Origin: an uncultured Spirochaetaceae bacterium
GTDB lineage: Bacteria > Spirochaetota > Spirochaetia > Sphaerochaetales > Sphaerochaetaceae
Direction of reading: 5' to 3'
Assembly: GCA_944389075.1 (NCBI GenBank)
Contig: CALXLA010000002.1
Location: 1 to 64,000, forward strand
DNA: 64,000 nt
Part shown: positions 51,220-63,909 of the stretch, one piece after another
How positions within the stretch are numbered: the first letter of the stretch is position 1
Layout of the letters: each line of letters starts with the position of its first letter
Position numbers and translations under genes: made by a program
The notes under the pieces: generated by a model
The model's input: only the letters and a program-made list of their open reading frames with translations
Databases searched by the model: none
What the model was told of the DNA's origin: nothing

Positions 51220-52929
51220 ATGGCAGAAGAATTCGAGAAGAAAGATTTTCAGAAAATACTCAAGCACAATGCACTTGAAGCGCATCGCTGGATGAAAGAG
51301 ACAGATTCAACGGCAGCAAGAGTCTATGACAGGAATCTGGGAGCTTTCCCTGTGACTGTCGATCTCTATGGAAGCTATGCGAGAATCGTTGATTACTCTG
51401 TTCCTCCGATGGAAGATGATGATGTCGTTGAGATGAAGGATATTGTCTCCAGATATCTTTATATAGAGCATGATAAGGTCATCTACCTTTCAAGGAAGAA
51501 GCGAGAGGGCAGGGAACAGCATGAGAAGACAGATGAGAGCCTTGTCCTTGATGTGATGGAAAGCGGTCTTTCATTCGAGTGCGAGCTTCTCAAGTACATC
51601 GATACAGGTCTTTTCCTCGACCAGGTGAATACAAGGCGGATGATCCAGGGAATGTCAAAGTCGATGAGAGTTCTGAATCTTTTCTCATATACTTCGGCTT
51701 TTTCCGTATATGCGGCCGCTGGCGGTGCCGAGACAGTCACCAGTGTCGATCTCTCGAATGTATATTGCCAGTGGTCCAGAAGGAATCTTGAGAAGAACGG
51801 ATTCCTTGACGAGAACAAGTATAGCGTGATAGCCTCCGATGCCAGTGCATTCCTTGATGATGCAATCTCATCGGGACGTGTCTACGATATCGTGATATTC
51901 GATCCTCCTGCTTTTTCCAATTCGCATAAGGCAGAGGATTTCGATGTGAAGAAGGATTACCTTGGTTTCCTCTACAGAATCAGCAAGGTGCTTGCGGAAG
52001 GCGGAGTATGCCTTTTCTCTGAGAATCTTGCAGGCTTTGCATTCGATGGCAAGGCACTTAAACCGTACTGGAAGGTAAGGGAGCTGAGTCAGGATCTGCT
52101 GGCTCAGGGGTTTTCCTCAAAGAGGAGTTCTTTGAGGATATGGCTGATGAAGAAGACTGCCGAGATGAAGGAAATAAGAAGTGCATATGGCAGGAAGAGA
52201 AGGGAAATGAACGACGAAGAAATCGATCGCCTCACATTAGATGAAGAGGCTGAAGAGAAAGGAACTCAGAGAGAAGACATGCCGGAAAAGAGGGAAGAGA
52301 GAAGGGAAAGAAGGGAATATCCAGAGCGCAGGAGCTATTCAGATAGAAGGGATGGCGGCAGAAGGGATGGCAGGCGTGATGATCGCCGCAGCTTCGACAG
52401 GCCGAGGTATTCCGATGATAGAAGAGGCGGATACGGCGACAGGAGAAGCAGCTACCGGGATAGGGATAACGACAGACCGAGAAGATCTTATGACGATGAC
52501 CGCTATTCTGAGAGAAGGGATTACCGCGACAGGGATTCAAGGAGATTCAGCGATTCCCGCCGCTCATCGGACAGGCCATATCGCAGCAGGGATGACTGGG
52601 ATAACGATACCGGCAGATTCTACCGAGGCGAGAGAAGGTATTCCGATGACAGAAGAGACAGCTATGGCGACAGAAGAAGCAATAGCTACAGCAGGGATAA
52701 TGACAGGCCTAGAAGATCCTTCAGTGATGACAGAAGGTCTTCACGCTATCGTGAGGATGGCTCCGACAGACGTCCTTTCGGTGGTGAGAGAGGTGGAGAG
52801 AGGCGCAAGCGCACAGCCCCTAAGCCGTATGGCTATGATTCCTTCATGGCAACGAAGAAGAGGGAGAGCGCAGATGCTTTCTGGCTAAAGAACACTGTCT
52901 ATCAGAAGTCTGAAGAGGACAACGACTGA
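51220..52929 (+). CDS. RlmI-type rRNA cytosine-C5-like methyltransferase with Arg/Asp/Ser-rich tail
   Basis: 569 residues. Residues 1-340 are a class I SAM methyltransferase of the RlmI/YccW group: a short N-terminal RNA-binding region, GLFLDQVNTRRMI, MRVLNLFSYTSAFSVYAAAGGAETVTSVDLS (SAM site) and DIVIFDPPAFSNS with the DPP motif. From about residue 345 to 530 the protein is almost only Arg, Asp, Ser, Gly, Tyr and Glu (RDRDNDRPRR, SDDRR, YGDRRS), typical of disordered RNA-binding tails. It ends with an ordered-looking 35-residue segment (PKPYGYDSFMATKKRES). The domain boundary is a real fusion in one frame, with no stop. Substrate RNA is unknown. Confidence 0.85.
   Translation: MAEEFEKKDFQKILKHNALEAHRWMKETDSTAARVYDRNLGAFPVTVDLYGSYARIVDYSVPPMEDDDVVEMKDIVSRYLYIEHDKVIYLSRKKREGREQHEKTDESLVLDVMESGLSFECELLKYIDTGLFLDQVNTRRMIQGMSKSMRVLNLFSYTSAFSVYAAAGGAETVTSVDLSNVYCQWSRRNLEKNGFLDENKYSVIASDASAFLDDAISSGRVYDIVIFDPPAFSNSHKAEDFDVKKDYLGFLYRISKVLAEGGVCLFSENLAGFAFDGKALKPYWKVRELSQDLLAQGFSSKRSSLRIWLMKKTAEMKEIRSAYGRKRREMNDEEIDRLTLDEEAEEKGTQREDMPEKREERRERREYPERRSYSDRRDGGRRDGRRDDRRSFDRPRYSDDRRGGYGDRRSSYRDRDNDRPRRSYDDDRYSERRDYRDRDSRRFSDSRRSSDRPYRSRDDWDNDTGRFYRGERRYSDDRRDSYGDRRSNSYSRDNDRPRRSFSDDRRSSRYREDGSDRRPFGGERGGERRKRTAPKPYGYDSFMATKKRESADAFWLKNTVYQKSEEDND
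52405..52500 (+). repeat. 32-codon repeat unit, copy 1, in the methyltransferase tail
   Basis: This 96-base unit and 52636-52731 encode RYSDDRR-xx-YGDRRS-...-RDNDRPRRS-...-DD with most residues the same. The two copies are equal in length and in frame, 231 bases apart by start, so the low-complexity tail grew partly by duplication. Confidence 0.75.
52636..52731 (+). repeat. 32-codon repeat unit, copy 2, in the methyltransferase tail
   Basis: Second copy of the unit at 52405-52500. Differences are mostly synonymous or Asp/Ser/Gly swaps, so the copies diverged while keeping charge pattern. Confidence 0.75.
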
Positions 52930-53154: not shown

Positions 53155-53169
53155 ATGTATGTAATACAT
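53155..53169 (+). promoter_or_regulatory. Inverted repeat before the antitoxin gene, candidate autoregulatory operator
   Basis: ATGTAT-GTA-ATACAT is a perfect inverted repeat immediately before the AAGGAGG ribosome site of the antitoxin gene. A -35-like TTGACT is at 53131-53136. RelB/DinJ-type antitoxins usually bind such repeats to repress their own operon. Confidence 0.5.
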
Positions 53170-53184
53170 AAGGAGGATGTCATA

Positions 53185-53469
53185 ATGTCTCAGATGTCAA
53201 CTTATAGCATAAGAATGGACAGTGGGCTCAAGAAAGCCTTCGATTCGATATGCGAAGACTTTGGGATGTCTTCAACCACCGCAATAAATATCTTCGCAAA
53301 GGCTGTCGTCCGTGAACGTCGTATACCTTTTGAAATCAAATCTGAGAATAAAGGAGTTGAAGCTCTCAATGCCTTACGGCTGTCTGCAAAGAGAAATGGA
53401 CTACAGGACATGAGTCTTGATGAGATTAATGAAGAGATAAGGCAAGCAAGAGAAGGAATCAGTGACTGA
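53185..53469 (+). CDS. RelB/DinJ-family antitoxin
   Basis: 94 residues from the ATG at 53185, which follows AAGGAGG; an upstream in-frame ATG at 53155 lies in the operator. The N-terminal ribbon-helix-helix STYSIRMDSGLKKAFDSICEDFGMSSTTAINIFAKAVV is the RelB/DinJ DNA-binding domain, and the C-terminal acidic helix (NEEIRQAREGI) would wrap the toxin. Its stop overlaps the PIN-domain ATG by one base, the usual toxin-antitoxin coupling. RelB/DinJ antitoxins usually pair with RelE/YafQ, so pairing with a PIN toxin is less common. Confidence 0.87.
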   Translation: MSQMSTYSIRMDSGLKKAFDSICEDFGMSSTTAINIFAKAVVRERRIPFEIKSENKGVEALNALRLSAKRNGLQDMSLDEINEEIRQAREGISD

Positions 53470-53896
53470 TGCGAAGAGCCGTCATTGATACTAATATCAT
53501 TGTCTCTGCTCTCCTTTCTAGCAATGATGAGGCCGCAACGGTAAAGGTACTTGAGTTATTGCTCAAAGGTCAGATCTTATCAGTTGTTACGGATAGCATC
53601 CTACAGGAATATGAAGAAGTTCTCAGACGGAAAAAATTCAGTTTTCCCGAAGAAAATGTATCCGTTCTTCTTAATGAGATAAGAAGTAAATCGGTTTTTG
53701 CTTCTCCTTGTAAAACAGATACCGAACTGCCAGATGAAAAAATGATCGGCCATTTTTCGAGGCAATGCTTTCTGATGATGATATCGTGCTAATTACAGGT
53801 AATATGAGGCATTTCCCAGATCACGAAAGAGTGATGACCGCAAGGATGTTTCTGGATTTATATGAAGAATCTGTTTTTCGCCCGGTAAGTCCTTAA
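53469..53896 (+). pseudogene. PIN-domain toxin, frameshifted near the C-terminus
   Basis: The frame starts MRRAVIDTNIIVSALLS (PIN active-site Asp in VIDTNI), with LQEYEEVLRR (second acidic residue) and ends early at 53792 as PDEKMIGHFSRQCF. In another frame the sequence continues as FFEAMLSDDDIVLITGNMRHFPDHERVMTARMFLDLYE to a TAA at 53894-53896, which is the normal PIN C-terminus with the last acidic residues and LITGN. Adding one A to the six-A run at 53737-53742 restores PDEKNDRPFFEA, the family consensus. So one base was lost; this may be a real mutation or a sequencing error. Confidence 0.8.
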
Positions 53897-55646: not shown

Positions 55647-55883
55647 ATCTTGCAAAGTGAACTGTACAGTCCGGTATCGGGGACTGTGATGGGGTTATTG
55701 AATTCCGCATATGGCGTATGAAGGCCACGATATGGTCCTGATTTGAGGACACCTCTTTCCAATCCTTCTTGAGAAAGGCGACCAATTAAGATTTTCACAC
55801 ATCGGCATGTATTTGCTGTATAATCATGATGATGAGAAGCAAGTTATCATTGTGCAAGGAAAAACATAATGGAAGGAGGCCAT

Positions 55884-58025
55884 ATGTCCGCAACTAAAAT
55901 CGACGACAGAATCGTGAGAGTCGATGCTATGGAGAAGGCCCGTGGAGAGGCTCTGTATGTCTCGGATATCAAATTCCCGGGCATGATTTACGGAACACTG
56001 GTGAGATCTTCCATCGCCAGAGGAAAGATAATCTCTATCAATGTGCCGGACCTTCCTGAAGGATACAGCTTCATCACCGCTGATGATATCCCGGAAGAGG
56101 GACGCAATGAGCTCTGGATGATAGCGAAGGACTGGAGATGCTTTGCATCAGGTGATGTGAAGTATGTAGGTGAGACTATCGGCATACTCTGCGGTCCGGA
56201 CAGGAACATGCTTTCCTATCTCAAGGAGAGGATAAAGGTAGAATATGAGGAGGAGGTCCCTGCCGTCACGATCGATGATGCTCTTTCCCTGAAGGGCGGG
56301 CCGATTGCAGGCGAGGACAACATCATGTGCTCCCTCTACTGCGAGAAGGGCGAGAAGATGGATGATGTCTTCAGAAAGGCCGATTCGATATTCGAGGAGA
56401 CGCTTGAGACAGGCTTCCAGGAGCATGTGCATCTTGAGACCAACAGCGCAATCGTAAGACTTGAGGATGGCAGGTTCACATTCTACATCTCCGCGCAGTG
56501 CCCGTTCTATGTACGCAAGTCAGTCGCAGGGCTTCTAGGCCTCAGACCTGAGGATATCGTCGTGAAGCAGACAACGACAGGCGGTGCATTCGGCGGAAAG
56601 GAACACTTCCCCGATGTTCTTGCTGGTCCGCTTCTCGTTGCATGCAATAAGATAAGGAAGCCGATAAAGCTTGTGTTCGAACGTGAAGAGGATATGCTTT
56701 ATTCAGTAAAGCGCCATCCATCGAAAGTCCTGTTCAAGACAGCGCTTGATAAGGAAGGCAACATACTCGGAATCGATGGGAAGATATACTACAACTGCGG
56801 TGCATATCTCTCTGCATCATATGTTGTCCTCCAGAGAGGTGTATTCCACGCAAATGGCGTCTATGACATACCATCAACTCATCTTGTTGGCTATGGTGTT
56901 GCGACGAATACATTCCCAAGCGATGCATTCAGGGGCTTTGGTGCTCCTCAGACGCTTTTCGCAATCGAGATGCATCTGTCGCATATCGCTAGGAAGTTCG
57001 GTTTCGATCCAGCTGAATACAAGTCGAGATATTTCCTGAAAAAGGGAAGCGAGACAGTCACCAATGGACATATCGTCGAGGATGTGAAGCTTCCTGAGAT
57101 GTTCAGGCAGATTGCTGATGCTTCCGATTATGAGAGGAAGTCAAAAGAATATGAAATAGGTTCTGGAAAGGGCATAGGCATTTCCTTCTACAATCATGGT
57201 GGTGCATTCACTGGTAATGGCGAGCAGGCAATCATCAAGGCCCATGCCCGTCTTGTGAAGACCGGCGACAGGGTCAGAATCGAGGTCGGCTCCACGGAGA
57301 TGGGGCAGGGGTTCCAGACTGCATTGAGGAAAATAGCAGCCAATGCTCTGGAGATAGATATCTCAAGAGTCGATTATCCTAATCCTGATACATCCAGAGT
57401 TCCTGACTCAGGTCCTACAGCTGCTTCACGATCCACGATGGTCGTCGGAAAGATCGTAGAGGACTGCGCACTTGAGATGAAAGCCAGATGGGATGAAGGA
57501 GACTTCTCTGTCGAGAAGGAATATGTCCATCCTGACGGGCATCCATGGGATCAGGACACGTTCCGTGGAGATGCATATCTTGGCTATGGCTGGGGAGCCT
57601 GCATAGTCGAGGTCGAGGTCGATAAGCTTACGAACGAAGTGACGACGAAAGGAATATGGTCAAGCCATGATGTAGGCAAGGCCATCGATGAGCTTATTGT
57701 CCATGGCCAGGTCAATGGCGGTGTGATCCAGTCGCTTGGCTATGCTTCCATGGAGAAGATGGAGAACAGGAATGGCCATTTCAGACAGTCATCGATGTCT
57801 GATTATGTAGTACCGACATCGATGGATTTCCCGAAGCAGGAATGGTTCCTTGTGGATAATCCTTATCAGTGGGGACCTCAGGGGGCAAAAGGCATGGGTG
57901 AGCTGGTGTTCAATGGTGCTGATGCCGCTTATACCGATGCTGTGGAGCGTGCACTTGGTGCGACAATCTGTAAGATTCCGATTCCACCGGAAGATATCGA
58001 GGAGGCAATCGACAATGCGAGATAA
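55884..58025 (+). CDS. Xanthine dehydrogenase-family molybdopterin-binding large subunit
   Basis: 713 residues from the ATG at 55884 with GGAGG upstream; an ATG 15 bases earlier has no site. The a/b hammerhead domain covers about 15-120 (GEALYVSDIKFPGMIYGTLVRSS). The molybdopterin domain has GGAFGGKE near residue 225, FRGFGAPQTLFA with the substrate-orienting Arg, STEMGQGFQTA and GAKGMGELV with the catalytic Glu near the end. With the small Fe-S and FAD genes that follow it forms a three-subunit hydroxylase of the Ndh/Xdh type. Substrate (purine, nicotinate, other) is not readable. Confidence 0.93.
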   Translation: MSATKIDDRIVRVDAMEKARGEALYVSDIKFPGMIYGTLVRSSIARGKIISINVPDLPEGYSFITADDIPEEGRNELWMIAKDWRCFASGDVKYVGETIGILCGPDRNMLSYLKERIKVEYEEEVPAVTIDDALSLKGGPIAGEDNIMCSLYCEKGEKMDDVFRKADSIFEETLETGFQEHVHLETNSAIVRLEDGRFTFYISAQCPFYVRKSVAGLLGLRPEDIVVKQTTTGGAFGGKEHFPDVLAGPLLVACNKIRKPIKLVFEREEDMLYSVKRHPSKVLFKTALDKEGNILGIDGKIYYNCGAYLSASYVVLQRGVFHANGVYDIPSTHLVGYGVATNTFPSDAFRGFGAPQTLFAIEMHLSHIARKFGFDPAEYKSRYFLKKGSETVTNGHIVEDVKLPEMFRQIADASDYERKSKEYEIGSGKGIGISFYNHGGAFTGNGEQAIIKAHARLVKTGDRVRIEVGSTEMGQGFQTALRKIAANALEIDISRVDYPNPDTSRVPDSGPTAASRSTMVVGKIVEDCALEMKARWDEGDFSVEKEYVHPDGHPWDQDTFRGDAYLGYGWGACIVEVEVDKLTNEVTTKGIWSSHDVGKAIDELIVHGQVNGGVIQSLGYASMEKMENRNGHFRQSSMSDYVVPTSMDFPKQEWFLVDNPYQWGPQGAKGMGELVFNGADAAYTDAVERALGATICKIPIPPEDIEEAIDNAR

Positions 58026-58494
58026 GGTAGTTTTCCATGTGAATGGGAAGAGAGTAGAGTTTGAAGGCAATCCGATGACACGCCTTATCGATATACTCAG
58101 GGATGATCTGGGCCTTACCGGCGTCAAGGAAGGCTGTGGTGAAGGCGAGTGCGGAGCCTGCTCGATCATCAAGGATGGGAAACTTGTCACAAGCTGCATA
58201 ATCCCTGTAGGTGCTGCAGATGGTTCCGAGATTCTCACGATCGAGGGAATAAAGGATACTCCGAAAGGAATCTGCATCACTGAGGCATTCCGTGATGGTG
58301 GTGCTGTCCAGTGCGGTTTCTGCATTCCGGGAATGGTGATGGCGGCATATGCCCTTCTTGAGGAGAACCATCATCCGACAGAGGAAGATATAAGAATGGC
58401 AATCAGCGGCAATATCTGCAGATGCACAGGCTATGATCTTATCGTCAGCAGCGTACAGCTGGCAGCTGAGCGCGGAGGTGAGCTATGGCAGTAA
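58015..58494 (+). CDS. [2Fe-2S] subunit of the molybdenum hydroxylase
   Basis: 159 residues from the ATG at 58015, which overlaps the large-subunit stop by 11 bp; GGAGG lies within that gene. The ferredoxin domain keeps four Cys (EGCGEGECGACSI ... TSC) and the second, helical domain keeps the other cluster (QCGFC ... ICRCTGY). So both [2Fe-2S] clusters are intact, unlike in the XdhD-like protein at 60120-62996. It transfers electrons from the molybdenum centre to FAD. Confidence 0.95.
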   Translation: MRDKVVFHVNGKRVEFEGNPMTRLIDILRDDLGLTGVKEGCGEGECGACSIIKDGKLVTSCIIPVGAADGSEILTIEGIKDTPKGICITEAFRDGGAVQCGFCIPGMVMAAYALLEENHHPTEEDIRMAISGNICRCTGYDLIVSSVQLAAERGGELWQ

Positions 58495-59427: not shown

Positions 59428-60111
59428 ATGGAGCAATTGATGAAGATACATAATCCGAAGAGCCTGGAAGAGGCTGTTCAGTTGAAGAAGTCATATCCGG
59501 AAGCTGTCTATTTCGCAGGCGGTACATACGTCTATTCGCTTGGCCATGATTTTGCCGATGCCATAGATATTTCCAGAGTCGTCAGGAACGAGATTTACCA
59601 CACGATGAATCATGTGCATATCGGGGCCATGGCTACTCTGGAGAAGATACTGCTCTCAGAGCTTTCGCCTCTCATCCTCAGAAATGGTGCTAAGCTTTGT
59701 CCGTCTCTTCAGCAGAGGTCCGCAGCTACGATCGGCGGGAATATCGCGCAGAGAAGGGATGATGGCTATCTCACAGCGGCGGTTCTAGCATCTGAGCCGG
59801 TTATTGTCCTCATGACGGAGAATGGCAGACTGGAGGTCTCTGCTGATGACTATATGGCAGGGAAGTATGATGGGCTGATTCTTGAATTCATCTTCAGGAA
59901 GAACCTCAAGGGTGATGTGAAGAGGATTGGCAGGACAAGTCATATGCATATGGCTGTTTCCGGAGCTGAGTGCAATGGAGTATATGCGTATACAGCATCG
60001 TCATCGGGTTTTGCCAAGGGTGGCAAGGATTCATGGCAGGATATCGCCTTCGAATCAGATAGCCTCGGAAGCGCTGACTATAAGCGCTATCTTCTCTCGG
60101 TGATGTTCTAG
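59428..60111 (+). CDS. ygfM: YgfM-like FAD-binding subunit of a selenate-reductase/selenium-dependent molybdenum hydroxylase-type enzyme
   Basis: 227 residues; the ATG at 59440 may be the real start, since GGAG precedes it by 6 bases. It has FAGGTYVYSLG and TIGGNIAQRRDDGYLTAAV for FAD, a short middle and the ending SADYKRYLLSVMF, which matches the end of E. coli YgfM (TIGR03312 group) with a compressed centre. It is shorter than the FAD subunit at 58485. ygfM next to xdhD is the E. coli order. The pair is linked in other bacteria to orphan SelD and selenium-dependent molybdenum hydroxylases. Confidence 0.82.
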   Translation: MEQLMKIHNPKSLEEAVQLKKSYPEAVYFAGGTYVYSLGHDFADAIDISRVVRNEIYHTMNHVHIGAMATLEKILLSELSPLILRNGAKLCPSLQQRSAATIGGNIAQRRDDGYLTAAVLASEPVIVLMTENGRLEVSADDYMAGKYDGLILEFIFRKNLKGDVKRIGRTSHMHMAVSGAECNGVYAYTASSSGFAKGGKDSWQDIAFESDSLGSADYKRYLLSVMF

Positions 60112-60119
60112 GAGGCCGT

Positions 60120-62996
60120 ATGGAAATCAGATGTAAACTCAATGGAAGGAATGCGATACTGAAAGGCCGAGAAGATGAAAGGCTCCGCAATGTGCTCTAT
60201 CGTTATGGATGCACCTCAGTCAGGGACAGCGATGATGCCGAGGGTTTCACAGGTTCCGATACCATAATCTTCAATGGCTCATTGATGTACTCTAATCTGA
60301 TTCCGCTGTGCAGGGCGGAGAATGCCGAGATCCTTACAGCTGAAAGTCTTATGAACGGAAGGGAAATCAATGATGTCCAGGAGGCAATGATTGCCGCAGG
60401 AGTTGTCCAGAGCGCATACAACTCTCCTGCGATGGCGCTTGTCCTCACATATCTTCTCAGGATCAAGCCAGAGGCAGATAAGAATGATGTCAGGAGATTC
60501 CTTTCCGGCATGTTCATCCGTGATGCTGGCTATGAGAACTTCTATCTGGCAGTGAAGCTTGTGCAGGAGAAGAGGAAGTATGGCTCCTACAGGAGCGAGA
60601 TCGCCCCATCGTTCAGACCTGAGCTTTCCGTGATTGGAAAGCCGTCCGGGAAGATAGATGGAAAAGCGCTTGTCTCCGGTGAGAAGCTGTTTGTTGAGGA
60701 CAGGGTGACTCCGGACAGCTATGTGCTTCATGTGCTCCGTTCTCCATTTGCCCATGCATGGGTCAGATCCATCGATACATCAAAGGCGGAGGCACTTGAT
60801 GGCGTTGAGGCAGTCTATACTGCATTCAATATCCCGGATGTCTATTACATGCAGGCGGGACAGGGCAATCCTGAGCCATCTCCATATGACAGGAAGCTGA
60901 TAAACCGCAAGGTGAGGCATCAGGGGGACAGGGTCGCTGCGATTGTTGCCTGCGACGAGGAGACAGCCATGAAGGCTGCATCCCTTATTGATGTCGTATA
61001 CGAGCCACTTGAGCCAGTCCTCTCTGTGGAGGATGCGATGGCGGAGGGAGCGCCTCTTGTCCATAATGGTGTTGTCGAGTATGTCTCAGGAGCTCCTGAG
61101 AATCTGGATGAATACAACAAGAGTGCTGACAGGAATGAGGAGAAAGTGATCTATCAGTTCCCTCTCCATGGCGATATACATAAGAATATCGCAGCAGCGG
61201 CACATGGCGGTATAGGTGATGTCGAGAAGGGCTTTGCTGAAGCTGATGCCATTGTCGATGAGACATACCGCACATCACAGCCTCAGTGCACGCCTCTTGA
61301 GCCTCATGTCTGCTTCGGGCACATAGAGAATGGAAGGCTTGTGCTGAATGCATCAACACAGGTCCCTTATCATGTGAGGCGCATCGTTGCCAGAGTCTGT
61401 CAGATTCCTGAGCACAAGGTCCATGTGATAAAGGAGAAGGTCGGCGGAGGCTATGGCTCCAAACAGGATATTCTTGTTGAGGATCTTCTTGGTTTCTGTG
61501 TGTGGAAGACAGGCAAGCCTATCTATTACAGGAATACAAGAGCAGAGGAATTCTATGCCAACTCAACCCGACATCCTATGAGGATACGTGTGAAGATGGG
61601 CGGAAAGAGGGATGGCACGATCACCGCAATCTATATGGATGTAAGGGCAAATACAGGACCTTACGGCAATCACTGCCTGACAGTTCCGATGAATGCCTCT
61701 TCAAAGACGCTTCCGCTTTTCAAGGTCGATAACATGTACTACGACCTCATAACCTACTATACCAACTGTCCTCCTGCCGGTGCTTATCAGGGATATGGAG
61801 CTCCTAAGGGATATTTTGCCATAGGCTCTGCTCTGGGTGAGCTTGCCATGAAGCTCGGCATTGATCCTCTTGAGATGGCCAAGAAGAATATGGTAGAGGA
61901 AGGTTACATGCTTGAGATCCTCAGGGGGCTTGGAGAAGGAAGGGAAGGTGCTGTCGTACCTGTAGGTTCCTGCGGACTGGCCCAGGCTCTCGATAAGGGT
62001 GCTGAGATGATCGGCTGGGGACACAAGGAGGAATCTGAAGATCCTGACTGGAAGATCGGAAAGGGCTTCGCGATGATACAGCAGGGCTCAGGACTTCCGG
62101 GTCTTGATCACTCCAACTGCCAGGTGAAGCTTCTGACAGATGGCACATTCGTAGTGCTTTCAGGTGGTGCCGATCTCGGAACAGGTCTTGATACAATCTC
62201 TGCAAAATGCGTATCTGAGATTCTCAAGGTTCCTATGGAGAATGTATCTGTGGTCTCCGGTGATACGGACAGCTGTCTTTTCGATACCGGCGCATATGCA
62301 TCATCAGGCACATATTTTTCTGCGAATGCATCGCTCAATGCTGCAAAGGACCTGAAGAAGAAGATGCTTCAGGAAGCTGCTCTCCAGCTTAATGAGAATG
62401 AAGAGGATCTTGAGCTCAGGAGTCCGGGGCTTATCTATTCGACGAAGACTAAGAGGGTTCTCAGCTACTATGAGCTTTCGCATACTGCGACATCCGGTTC
62501 CGGCCGCGGTGCCCTTATCGGGACAGGTTCCTTCACTACGCCGAATTTCGCGATTCCGTATGGTGCCCATTTCGCGCAGGTTGCCGTCAATGTTAAGACA
62601 GGAGAGATAAAGGTACAGAAGTTCTATGCGCTTCAGGATGCAGGAACTCCTATCAATCCTGAGCTTGCTATGTGCCAGATGTACGGCGCTGTAATGAAGA
62701 GCATAGGCCATACGCTCTATGAGGATCTTGCTCTCGACAAGGATGGCAGATGCCTTACGACTACATTCACTGATTATGGAGTTCCGATGATACAGGAAGC
62801 CCCTGAGGACTTCAGGAGCGTTCTCATAGATATCAATGACGAGTATGGCCCATTCGGCGCGAAGTCGATTTCGGAGATTGCCTGCAATGGTGCGGCTCCT
62901 GCGATTGCAATGGCTATTGCGGATGCAACAGGCGTATGGGTCAGAAGCTGGCCGATAACAGGCGAGAAGATACTCAGAGAGCTTGGGCGCTTCTAG
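60120..62996 (+). CDS. xdhD: XdhD-like molybdenum-binding subunit with a cysteine-free [2Fe-2S]-fold N-terminus
   Basis: 958 residues, close to E. coli XdhD. Residues 1-150 align with the Fe-S subunit at 58015, but each of its eight cluster Cys is replaced: VRDSDDAEGFTGSD for the first four, VVQSAYNSP and SGMFIRDAGY for the second four. The hammerhead (VSGEKLFVEDRVTPDSYVLHVLRSPFAHA) and molybdopterin domain follow with VGGGYGSKQDI, YQGYGAPKGYFA (Gln where Arg is usual), GGADLGTGLDT and GAKSISEIACN with the catalytic Glu. This is the SDMH/selenate-reductase type (TIGR03313). It probably takes electrons by another partner. Confidence 0.87.
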   Translation: MEIRCKLNGRNAILKGREDERLRNVLYRYGCTSVRDSDDAEGFTGSDTIIFNGSLMYSNLIPLCRAENAEILTAESLMNGREINDVQEAMIAAGVVQSAYNSPAMALVLTYLLRIKPEADKNDVRRFLSGMFIRDAGYENFYLAVKLVQEKRKYGSYRSEIAPSFRPELSVIGKPSGKIDGKALVSGEKLFVEDRVTPDSYVLHVLRSPFAHAWVRSIDTSKAEALDGVEAVYTAFNIPDVYYMQAGQGNPEPSPYDRKLINRKVRHQGDRVAAIVACDEETAMKAASLIDVVYEPLEPVLSVEDAMAEGAPLVHNGVVEYVSGAPENLDEYNKSADRNEEKVIYQFPLHGDIHKNIAAAAHGGIGDVEKGFAEADAIVDETYRTSQPQCTPLEPHVCFGHIENGRLVLNASTQVPYHVRRIVARVCQIPEHKVHVIKEKVGGGYGSKQDILVEDLLGFCVWKTGKPIYYRNTRAEEFYANSTRHPMRIRVKMGGKRDGTITAIYMDVRANTGPYGNHCLTVPMNASSKTLPLFKVDNMYYDLITYYTNCPPAGAYQGYGAPKGYFAIGSALGELAMKLGIDPLEMAKKNMVEEGYMLEILRGLGEGREGAVVPVGSCGLAQALDKGAEMIGWGHKEESEDPDWKIGKGFAMIQQGSGLPGLDHSNCQVKLLTDGTFVVLSGGADLGTGLDTISAKCVSEILKVPMENVSVVSGDTDSCLFDTGAYASSGTYFSANASLNAAKDLKKKMLQEAALQLNENEEDLELRSPGLIYSTKTKRVLSYYELSHTATSGSGRGALIGTGSFTTPNFAIPYGAHFAQVAVNVKTGEIKVQKFYALQDAGTPINPELAMCQMYGAVMKSIGHTLYEDLALDKDGRCLTTTFTDYGVPMIQEAPEDFRSVLIDINDEYGPFGAKSISEIACNGAAPAIAMAIADATGVWVRSWPITGEKILRELGRF

Positions 62997-63909
62997 GCCT
63001 GACTGCCGAGAAAAGGACTTTGAGGACACCGCCACAGATCATGGCGGTGTTTCCTCCTTCTCTCAGGTCATACTCCGCAACGTACAGGGATTCACCTGAG
63101 GAAAGCATTTTCCTTGCCTTGTCTTCGGCAATCTTCTCAAGCGCACCGCCTCCGATTGTGGAGTATGTGCGCTTTTCAGTTACGAACATGGTCGCTCCCA
63201 CTTCCTGAGGACTTGAACCATCTTTTGATATGATCCTCACTTCGATTCCTTCGTTTCTGGACATGATATCGAGAAGTTCCGTATTGATCTGCACAGCTTT
63301 CCTGTCCTTGCGGATCTCTGAGATTATCTCAGCCATTATCGAGACGGCGATCTCTTCGGGAGTGACAGCATTTATGCTCAGTCCGATAGGCGCATGGACA
63401 TGCTTCAGTACTTCATCTGAAAAACCTTCCTGCCTTAGGATGCTGAACTGTGCCTCGACTTTTCTTTTAGAGCCTATCATGCCTATATACATCGCATTAT
63501 GGTCAAGCGCGTATCTCAGGCATTCAAGGTCATAGCTATGTCCATGAGTGAATATGATATAGCAGGGGAATGGATGGTATTCCTTTGAGAGAAGCTCCGG
63601 GAAGGAAGCCGTATGGCATTCAGCGCCAGGGAATCTCTCTTCCGTCGCAAGTTCTGTCCTGTCATCAAGGATGATTGTCCTGATGCCGCAGAGCGCCGCA
63701 ATGCTGTGGAGAGCCTTTCCTACGTGTCCTGCGCCGAACATGACGAAAACAGGCTCTGCCGTGATTGTCTCGGAGACATCATAGGATGAATCTTCTCCTG
63801 ATAGGAGCTTCCCTTCCTGCCATATTGATGTCATACCTGATATAGATGATGTATGGCGTTCGACAGTACCGTTTTTCAATGCATCGAGCAAAACAGAGTA
63901 ATCGATCAT
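62974..63909 (-). CDS. xdhC: XdhC-family molybdenum-cofactor maturation protein with swapped domain order
   Basis: 311 residues. Usual XdhC proteins have the XdhC/CoxI domain first and a Rossmann domain second. Here the Rossmann domain is first (FVMFGAGHVGKALHSIAAL, IIFTHGHSYDLECLRYAL, YIGMIGSKRKVEAQ), and the CoxI domain (VRIISKDGSSPQEVGATMFV, STIGGGALEKIAEDKA, AMICGG) is at residues about 215-300. XdhC sulfurates or inserts the molybdenum cofactor of xanthine dehydrogenase-type enzymes. It faces the xdhD-like gene tail to tail (23 bp overlap). Its start overlaps the stop of a NifS-like gene, a likely sulfur/selenium donor. Confidence 0.85.
   Translation of the reverse strand: MIDYSVLLDALKNGTVERHTSSISGMTSIWQEGKLLSGEDSSYDVSETITAEPVFVMFGAGHVGKALHSIAALCGIRTIILDDRTELATEERFPGAECHTASFPELLSKEYHPFPCYIIFTHGHSYDLECLRYALDHNAMYIGMIGSKRKVEAQFSILRQEGFSDEVLKHVHAPIGLSINAVTPEEIAVSIMAEIISEIRKDRKAVQINTELLDIMSRNEGIEVRIISKDGSSPQEVGATMFVTEKRTYSTIGGGALEKIAEDKARKMLSSGESLYVAEYDLREGGNTAMICGGVLKVLFSAVRPRSAQAL

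Follow-up and report, generated by a model that had tools for sequence, protein, structure and literature searches.

A fused XdhD molybdenum hydroxylase with a conserved ferredoxin-like domain that lacks all eight [2Fe-2S] ligand cysteines

The DNA analysed here (the window) is a stretch of 64,000 nucleotides from an uncultured Spirochaetaceae bacterium (assembly GCA_944389075.1, contig CALXLA010000002.1, positions 1 to 64,000), a spirochaete with a genome of 2.2 Mb in 60 contigs. At its right end lie the genes of two molybdenum (Mo) hydroxylases, the first encoded as a trio of Mo, iron-sulfur (Fe-S) and flavin adenine dinucleotide (FAD) subunits, and the second as a pair in which a YgfM-like FAD subunit is followed by XdhD, a Mo subunit with a fused ferredoxin-like N-terminal domain (N-domain) that is the subject of this report (Table 1). 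XdhD matches TIGR03313 at full length (residues 7-956, 1179.7 bits, exceeding the curated cut-off of 1101.9), and its molybdenum cofactor (Moco)-binding domains are recognised by the Pfam models MoCoBD_1 (245 bits) and MoCoBD_2 (233 bits). Among named relatives, an uncultured Spirochaetaceae bacterium has the nearest XdhD (89% identity), and other close records are assigned to Candidatus Ornithospirochaeta.

Table 1. XdhD, its partner YgfM and neighbouring genes in the window, with the basis of each assignment (pLDDT, predicted local distance difference test).
Feature	Positions	Strand	Basis
XdhD, 958 aa, Mo subunit with fused cysteine-free ferredoxin-like N-domain	60120..62996	+	TIGR03313, MoCoBD_1, MoCoBD_2, Ald_Xan_dh_C
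XdhD N-domain, residues 1-150, Fer2 and Fer2_2 fold without cluster ligands	60120..60569	+	Pfam, model, alignment
Former cluster loop 1, residues 35-47, RDSDDAEGFTGSD, Cys replaced by D38, T44, D47	60222..60260	+	alignment; pLDDT <50 at 38-44
N59, former fourth ligand of first cluster	60294..60296	+	alignment
Residues 97-101, QSAYN, former QCGxC motif (S98, N101)	60408..60422	+	alignment
Residues 132-138, FIRDAGY, former xCRCTGY motif (I133, D135)	60513..60533	+	alignment; pLDDT <50 at 134-136
Moco-binding-type motif GGGYGSK, residues 442-448, with group-specific Y445 and S447	61443..61463	+	alignment
YgfM-like FAD-binding subunit, 227 aa, XdhD partner	59428..60111	+	FAD_binding_5; ends 8 bases before xdhD
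YgfM flavin loop, ATIGGN kept, canonical SPxGD replaced by R-x-D-[SG]-Y at residues 110-114	59725..59769	+	alignment
XdhA-like Mo subunit of separate complete enzyme	55869..58025	+	profile matches
Intact [2Fe-2S] subunit, eight ligand Cys, of separate XdhABC-like enzyme	58015..58494	+	profile matches, alignment
XdhB-like FAD subunit of separate XdhABC-like enzyme, canonical NASPKGD loop	58485..59348	+	profile matches, loop sequence
XdhC/CoxI-family Moco maturation factor	62974..63909	-	profile matches

Ligand positions in XdhD were set by alignment with the intact Fe-S subunit of the neighbouring trio and with cysteine-bearing XdhD proteins. By sequence, XdhD retains none of the eight cysteines that would hold the two [2Fe-2S] clusters by which the xanthine oxidase family is recognised, the former ligand positions being occupied by D38, T44, D47, N59, S98, N101, I133 and D135. 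An earlier note on this DNA had proposed that the cysteines are replaced while the fold is kept, and both parts held up. Residues 73-146 still match Pfam Fer2_2 (44.1 bits against a gathering score of 30.3; the intact Fe-S subunit scores 98 bits), and an AlphaFold2 model calculated from 24 sequences (mean pLDDT 76, predicted TM-score 0.73) shows a ferredoxin sheet and a helical bundle in the N-domain. The model aligns with Desulfovibrio gigas aldehyde oxidoreductase (1sij; Z 32.2, 855 residues, 2.9 Å) in a match that spans residues 1-957, gives Z scores of about 28-33 against xanthine oxidase family folds, and would put the fused cysteine-less N-domain in the place of the Fe-S subunit; the former cluster loops 38-44 and 134-136 are among its low-confidence parts. 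A sequence search of the Protein Data Bank returned no XdhD, the nearest entry being 1rm6. The motif pairs that the note gave for this alignment all hold, apart from an extra residue in the first ligand loop of XdhD; the loop is just as long in cysteine-bearing XdhD proteins, with which it aligns without a gap. We found no cysteine column specific to the cysteine-less group in either XdhD or YgfM and therefore rejected replacement cluster ligands elsewhere in the two proteins, and we infer that the N-domain of cysteine-less XdhD probably holds no clusters in the protein itself. For such members the NCBI family name 'Mo/Fe-S-binding subunit' and the Pfam [2Fe-2S] call are misleading.

The distribution of the trait was surveyed in 102 distinct fused XdhD proteins, comprising relatives of the window protein, representatives of a class-wide sample (138 of 395 genomes lay above the TIGR03313 cut-off), E. 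coli and plasmid records; two loci, L119 and L145, were excluded from the counts for a contig edge or broken frame. The survey reached Spirochaetota, plasmid records and E. coli, the contig scan of genomes gave spirochaetes only, and sampling outside the spirochaetes is thin, consisting of E. coli and one Cetobacterium. Within this set the ligand cysteines are kept all or none: 81 proteins have none, nine have one (always at position 44) and 12 have eight, with nothing between. Fer2_2 segments score about 42-62 bits in cysteine-less and 80-92 bits in cysteine-bearing XdhD (30-genome survey). Four of the replacement residues are near-invariant in the 90 cysteine-less proteins, namely D38 (90/90), D47 (90/90), N101 (89/90) and S98 (88/90), while the other positions vary, with mostly Ala or Thr at 44, Ile, Asn or Val at 133, Ala at 135 in 23 of 90 and Gly at 59 in 13 of 90. 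All eight positions also lack cysteine in XdhD of E. coli K-12, as the earlier note had stated, and a 474-base query across its N-domain had matches of at least 90% identity, nearly always full-length, in 5130 of 5426 complete E. coli genomes. Since the trait is found in 90 of 102 distinct proteins, with four near-invariant replacements and a widely retained E. coli N-domain, chance can be excluded.

The 12 proteins with eight cysteines come from Cetobacterium somerae (Fusobacteriota; L087:11995-14859) and eleven spirochaetes of three family groups (L057, L108-L114 and L116-L118). The C. somerae gene is plasmid-borne and clusters with ssnA and with genes for a diaminopropionate ammonia-lyase and a YgeY-family protein. 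One spirochaete locus, L057, has an open frame of 1230 aa that could be taken for an N-terminal fusion, but its extra 275 residues are read-through, and the FAD gene lies upstream in another frame. These TIGR03313 members rule out the universal form of the 'class trait' that had been suggested, although the loss is indeed widely shared; the opposite case, in which most relatives keep the cysteines and the window copy alone is degenerate, is not what we found either. Given the split of 90 against 12, cysteine loss is a trait of a clade, neither of the whole family nor of a damaged window copy. Two genomes (loci L095 in G038 and L136 in G208) contain a second XdhD copy that is also cysteine-less and has an FAD subunit, with no intact Fe-S gene close upstream. 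In E. coli OkiPb01675 (L091:5225-6645), xdhD breaks off after 87 bases and idi follows at once; the annotation calls the remaining fragment a 2Fe-2S cluster-binding protein.

In the sister group of XdhD, the Fe-S and Mo subunits are encoded by separate, adjacent genes, and the Fe-S proteins bear the cysteines. In a larger tree, built on the Mo domain alone with the N-domain omitted, the first lineage to branch off is Cetobacterium, the spirochaete proteins with cysteines group as a clade (support 99), and all cysteine-less XdhD proteins, including that of E. coli, lie on one side of a single branch. In a smaller tree, an approximately unbiased test did not reject the cysteine-less proteins as one clade (p 0.34). 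Two separate losses had been considered from the first trees, where L057 stood beside E. coli or was unresolved; once further cysteine-bearing sequences were added, the cysteine-less proteins came together in one group. The simplest history, which fits these data, is a fusion followed by one concerted loss of both cluster sites and then by spread across phyla. The N-domain is under purifying selection, with a ratio of nonsynonymous to synonymous substitution rates (dN/dS) of 0.02-0.10 in nine close pairs, about 1 to 2.5 times that of the rest of the protein and far below neutral; the synonymous rate is high in some pairs, and single values are rough.

In 120 of 122 loci, xdhD is immediately preceded by a YgfM-type FAD gene; the other two have xdhD near a contig end. 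The window YgfM scores 74.3 bits against TIGR03312, below the cut-off of 241.5, while its model matches the FAD subunit of CO dehydrogenase over the whole subunit (1ffu_C; Z 24.1, 227 residues, 2.5 Å). Because the AGGT and ATIGGN motifs are kept in nearly all YgfM copies, the subunit probably still binds FAD. Its flavin loop has changed together with the cysteines of its partner: beside most cysteine-less XdhD proteins it reads R-x-D-S-Y, and beside most cysteine-bearing ones K-S-C-A-S.

At the Mo site, E606 and the catalytic-type glutamate E919 are identical in 102 of 102 XdhD proteins, cysteine-less and cysteine-bearing alike. With the thresholds chosen, twelve positions across XdhD are fixed differently between the two groups, six of them in cluster loops and two in the Moco motif. 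The latter are Y445 and S447, found in 89 and 90 of 90 cysteine-less proteins, respectively, where cysteine-bearing proteins have Phe and mostly Ala; E. coli has Phe at 445. This may represent an alteration of the Mo pocket that is tied to the missing relay, and the flavin loop and Moco motif would be the places in which to look for a bypass.

XdhD is reported to catalyse the opening step of the reductive uric acid pathway, which has been described only recently in gut bacteria and is of interest for gout. YgfK and SsnA, both above cut-off, are encoded side by side on another contig of the source genome (G000:C16, 38721-41906 and 37390-38688, respectively). Across 25 genomes or records, YgfK is above cut-off in 23, the exceptions being G082 and the Cetobacterium plasmid, and SsnA likewise in 23, with weaker matches in G120 and G066. 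Since these proteins accompany both XdhD groups, the pathway setting of the two is the same. Judged from its predicted proteins, the gene set of the source genome is that of the reductive uric acid pathway, and the window XdhD-YgfM pair is predicted to be the uric acid reductase that carries out its first step, from uric acid to yanthine. According to the available text of Li et al. 2025 (PMC12507026), E. coli XdhD, purified together with a 30 kDa protein assumed to be YgfM, converts uric acid and NADH to yanthine; the authors model XdhD-YgfM on Rhodobacter capsulatus xanthine dehydrogenase, with NADH electrons entering via YgfM, and propose that E606 orients uric acid. A commentary, likewise as available, gives an AlphaFold3 interface predicted TM-score of 0.94 for XdhD-YgfM and terms the FAD subunit an electron-transfer module (PMC12990295). 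The published model thus assumes an electron path like that of xanthine dehydrogenase, for which cluster ligands are missing from most sampled XdhD proteins, among them that of E. coli. The missing ligands go unmentioned in the available text of both Li et al. (PMC12507026; no '2Fe-2S' or 'cysteine') and the commentary (PMC12990295). A literature search for XdhD with Fe-S and xanthine dehydrogenase returned only Li et al., and one for xanthine oxidase family enzymes without cluster ligands returned nothing on point, both within a coverage mostly outside subscription papers, where the loss may have been noticed earlier.

The earlier note had asked how electrons leave the Mo site. The problem is real, but its direction has to be turned round, since the activity reported for E. 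coli means that electrons must arrive at Mo. We consider it probable that XdhD is a Mo hydroxylase whose whole relay has been dismantled, and which works either by purine transhydroxylation or by passing reductant straight to Mo, with the ferredoxin domain as a scaffold; if true, this would break the rule that enzymes of the xanthine oxidase family need [2Fe-2S] clusters. More narrowly, and with confidence just on the favourable side of even, we propose that XdhD-YgfM is a uric acid reductase with a working, cluster-free ferredoxin scaffold, in which electrons bypass the Fe-S relay. In this proposal an Fe-S gene and a Mo gene would have fused, and later, in one lineage, both [2Fe-2S] sites would have been lost together. 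The loops would have been rebuilt around the fixed polar residues D38, D47, S98 and N101, most likely allowing the N-domain to be packed in between the Mo domain and YgfM. NADH would still load the YgfM flavin, no electron would cross an Fe-S relay, and electrons would reach Mo otherwise, the likeliest means being an altered geometry or a donor of two electrons acting at the Mo pocket; the pocket itself would have changed in step (Y445, S447). Input via YgfM is favoured because the FAD motifs are kept, the gene pair is conserved and an NADH assay has been reported. Natural relatives with eight cysteines and the same Mo-site residues offer a ready comparison, and make a cluster-free electron route directly testable.

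Several observations weigh against this proposal. In xanthine oxidoreductase, Moco, two clusters and FAD stand in line at separations of less than about 14 Å (PMC4334109), so that loss of the relay should stop transfer from a canonically docked flavin; yet an NADH-supported product is reported, and the available text of Li et al. (PMC12507026) does not describe an NADH-free control for XdhD. YgfM also diverges faster than the adjacent XdhB-like FAD subunit (69% against 89% and 46% against 70% identity to two relatives), which could reflect a relaxed demand on electron input. The branch that implies a single loss has only moderate support (SH-like approximate likelihood ratio test, 78), and the outgroup and Cetobacterium branches are long, making the root position uncertain.

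The principal alternative, unlikely in our view but the strongest of its kind, is a redox-neutral transhydroxylase, in which Mo would hydroxylate one purine while uric acid becomes yanthine, so that a relay could be dispensed with; if xanthine were the donor, the net reaction would be xanthine to yanthine, making the enzyme in effect a xanthine-to-yanthine isomerase. The missing relay together with the kept Mo-site residues that were checked, the fast divergence of YgfM, and a complete xanthine dehydrogenase-like enzyme just upstream in 31 of 49 cysteine-less loci would all suit such chemistry, as would the yanthine accumulated by an E. coli xdhA mutant, where xanthine would remain available (PMC12507026, available text). 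The cysteine-bearing relatives, however, share the same Mo-site residues, the nearly constant FAD motifs of YgfM would be unexpected if FAD had no redox role, and purified XdhD-YgfM is reported to form yanthine from uric acid and NADH alone (PMC12507026, available text).

That another redox cofactor or metal occupies the former cluster sites, bound by D38, D47 and N59 and by S98, N101 and D135, strikes us as distinctly doubtful: the near-invariance of D38, D47, S98 and N101 is what one would expect of ligands, but positions 44, 133, 135 and 59 are not conserved as such. Low model confidence in loops 38-44 and 134-136 is neutral on this point. It is more doubtful still that XdhD borrows the intact Fe-S subunit of the adjacent XdhABC-like enzyme, as the earlier note had suggested. 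The 6.5 kb upstream do contain an intact Fe-S gene in 31 of 49 cysteine-less loci, against 0 of 9 cysteine-bearing ones (related loci, for which the counts are no test), and all 25 genomes picked because they have cysteine-less XdhD encode one or more high-scoring Fe-S domains of the xanthine oxidase type. Against this, the trio forms a complete enzyme of its own, 18 of the 49 cysteine-less loci whose upstream sequence extends for 6.5 kb or more lack an intact Fe-S gene in that stretch, the covalently attached N-domain already occupies the Fe-S subunit's place in the model, and a single partner of about 30 kDa was noted with purified XdhD (PMC12507026, available text). A decaying, functionless remnant is scarcely credible, for while the N-domain evolves somewhat faster than the rest of XdhD, degeneration is contradicted by its dN/dS values and invariant replacements, by its constant length and fold across phyla and by its retention in nearly all E. 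coli.

Elsewhere in the window, a methyltransferase-like open reading frame (51220-52929) has a C-terminal part in which Arg, Asp, Ser and Tyr are strongly enriched, a kind of tail not usual in such enzymes, and a small gene pair (53155-53792) resembles genes for a RelB-type antitoxin and for a PIN-like protein of only 107 aa that may be truncated. Past the window, frames read by eye on the same contig suggest a YedE-like transporter, SelD, a YgeW-like carbamoyltransferase and YqeC/YqeB-like proteins. The source genome also encodes, outside the window, a further fused xanthine-dehydrogenase-like protein in an open frame of 885 aa (G000:C3:38141-40078).

Among known systems, E. coli XdhD-YgfM (PMC12507026) is the closest counterpart, with the same family, gene pair, E606, catalytic Glu and cysteine-free N-domain at about 50% identity, although the window YgfM is shorter than its E. 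coli homologue and falls below the TIGR03312 cut-off. Cysteine-bearing XdhD proteins share with the window protein the fusion, the loop length, the Mo-site residues and an FAD subunit directly upstream, and an SsnA family member is present where searched (the Cetobacterium plasmid and G120), as in the window genome; they differ in their eight cysteines, in a YgfM loop that is mostly K-S-C-A-S, and in Phe and mostly Ala in place of Y445 and S447. D. gigas aldehyde oxidoreductase likewise carries its Fe-S domain followed by its Mo domain in one chain, but possesses both [2Fe-2S] clusters and lacks an FAD subunit. 4-Hydroxybenzoyl-CoA reductase (1rm6), whose match to the Mo part of XdhD is among the best (Z 32.7), is a xanthine oxidase family member that removes a hydroxyl group with inverted electron flow. 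That enzyme uses two [2Fe-2S] clusters and an extra [4Fe-4S] cluster, where XdhD has no cysteine ligands. Pyrogallol-phloroglucinol transhydroxylase provides a precedent for redox-neutral hydroxyl transfer at Mo, as the transhydroxylase alternative would require, but belongs to the DMSO reductase family, with a fold unrelated to that of XdhD and with Fe-S clusters present.

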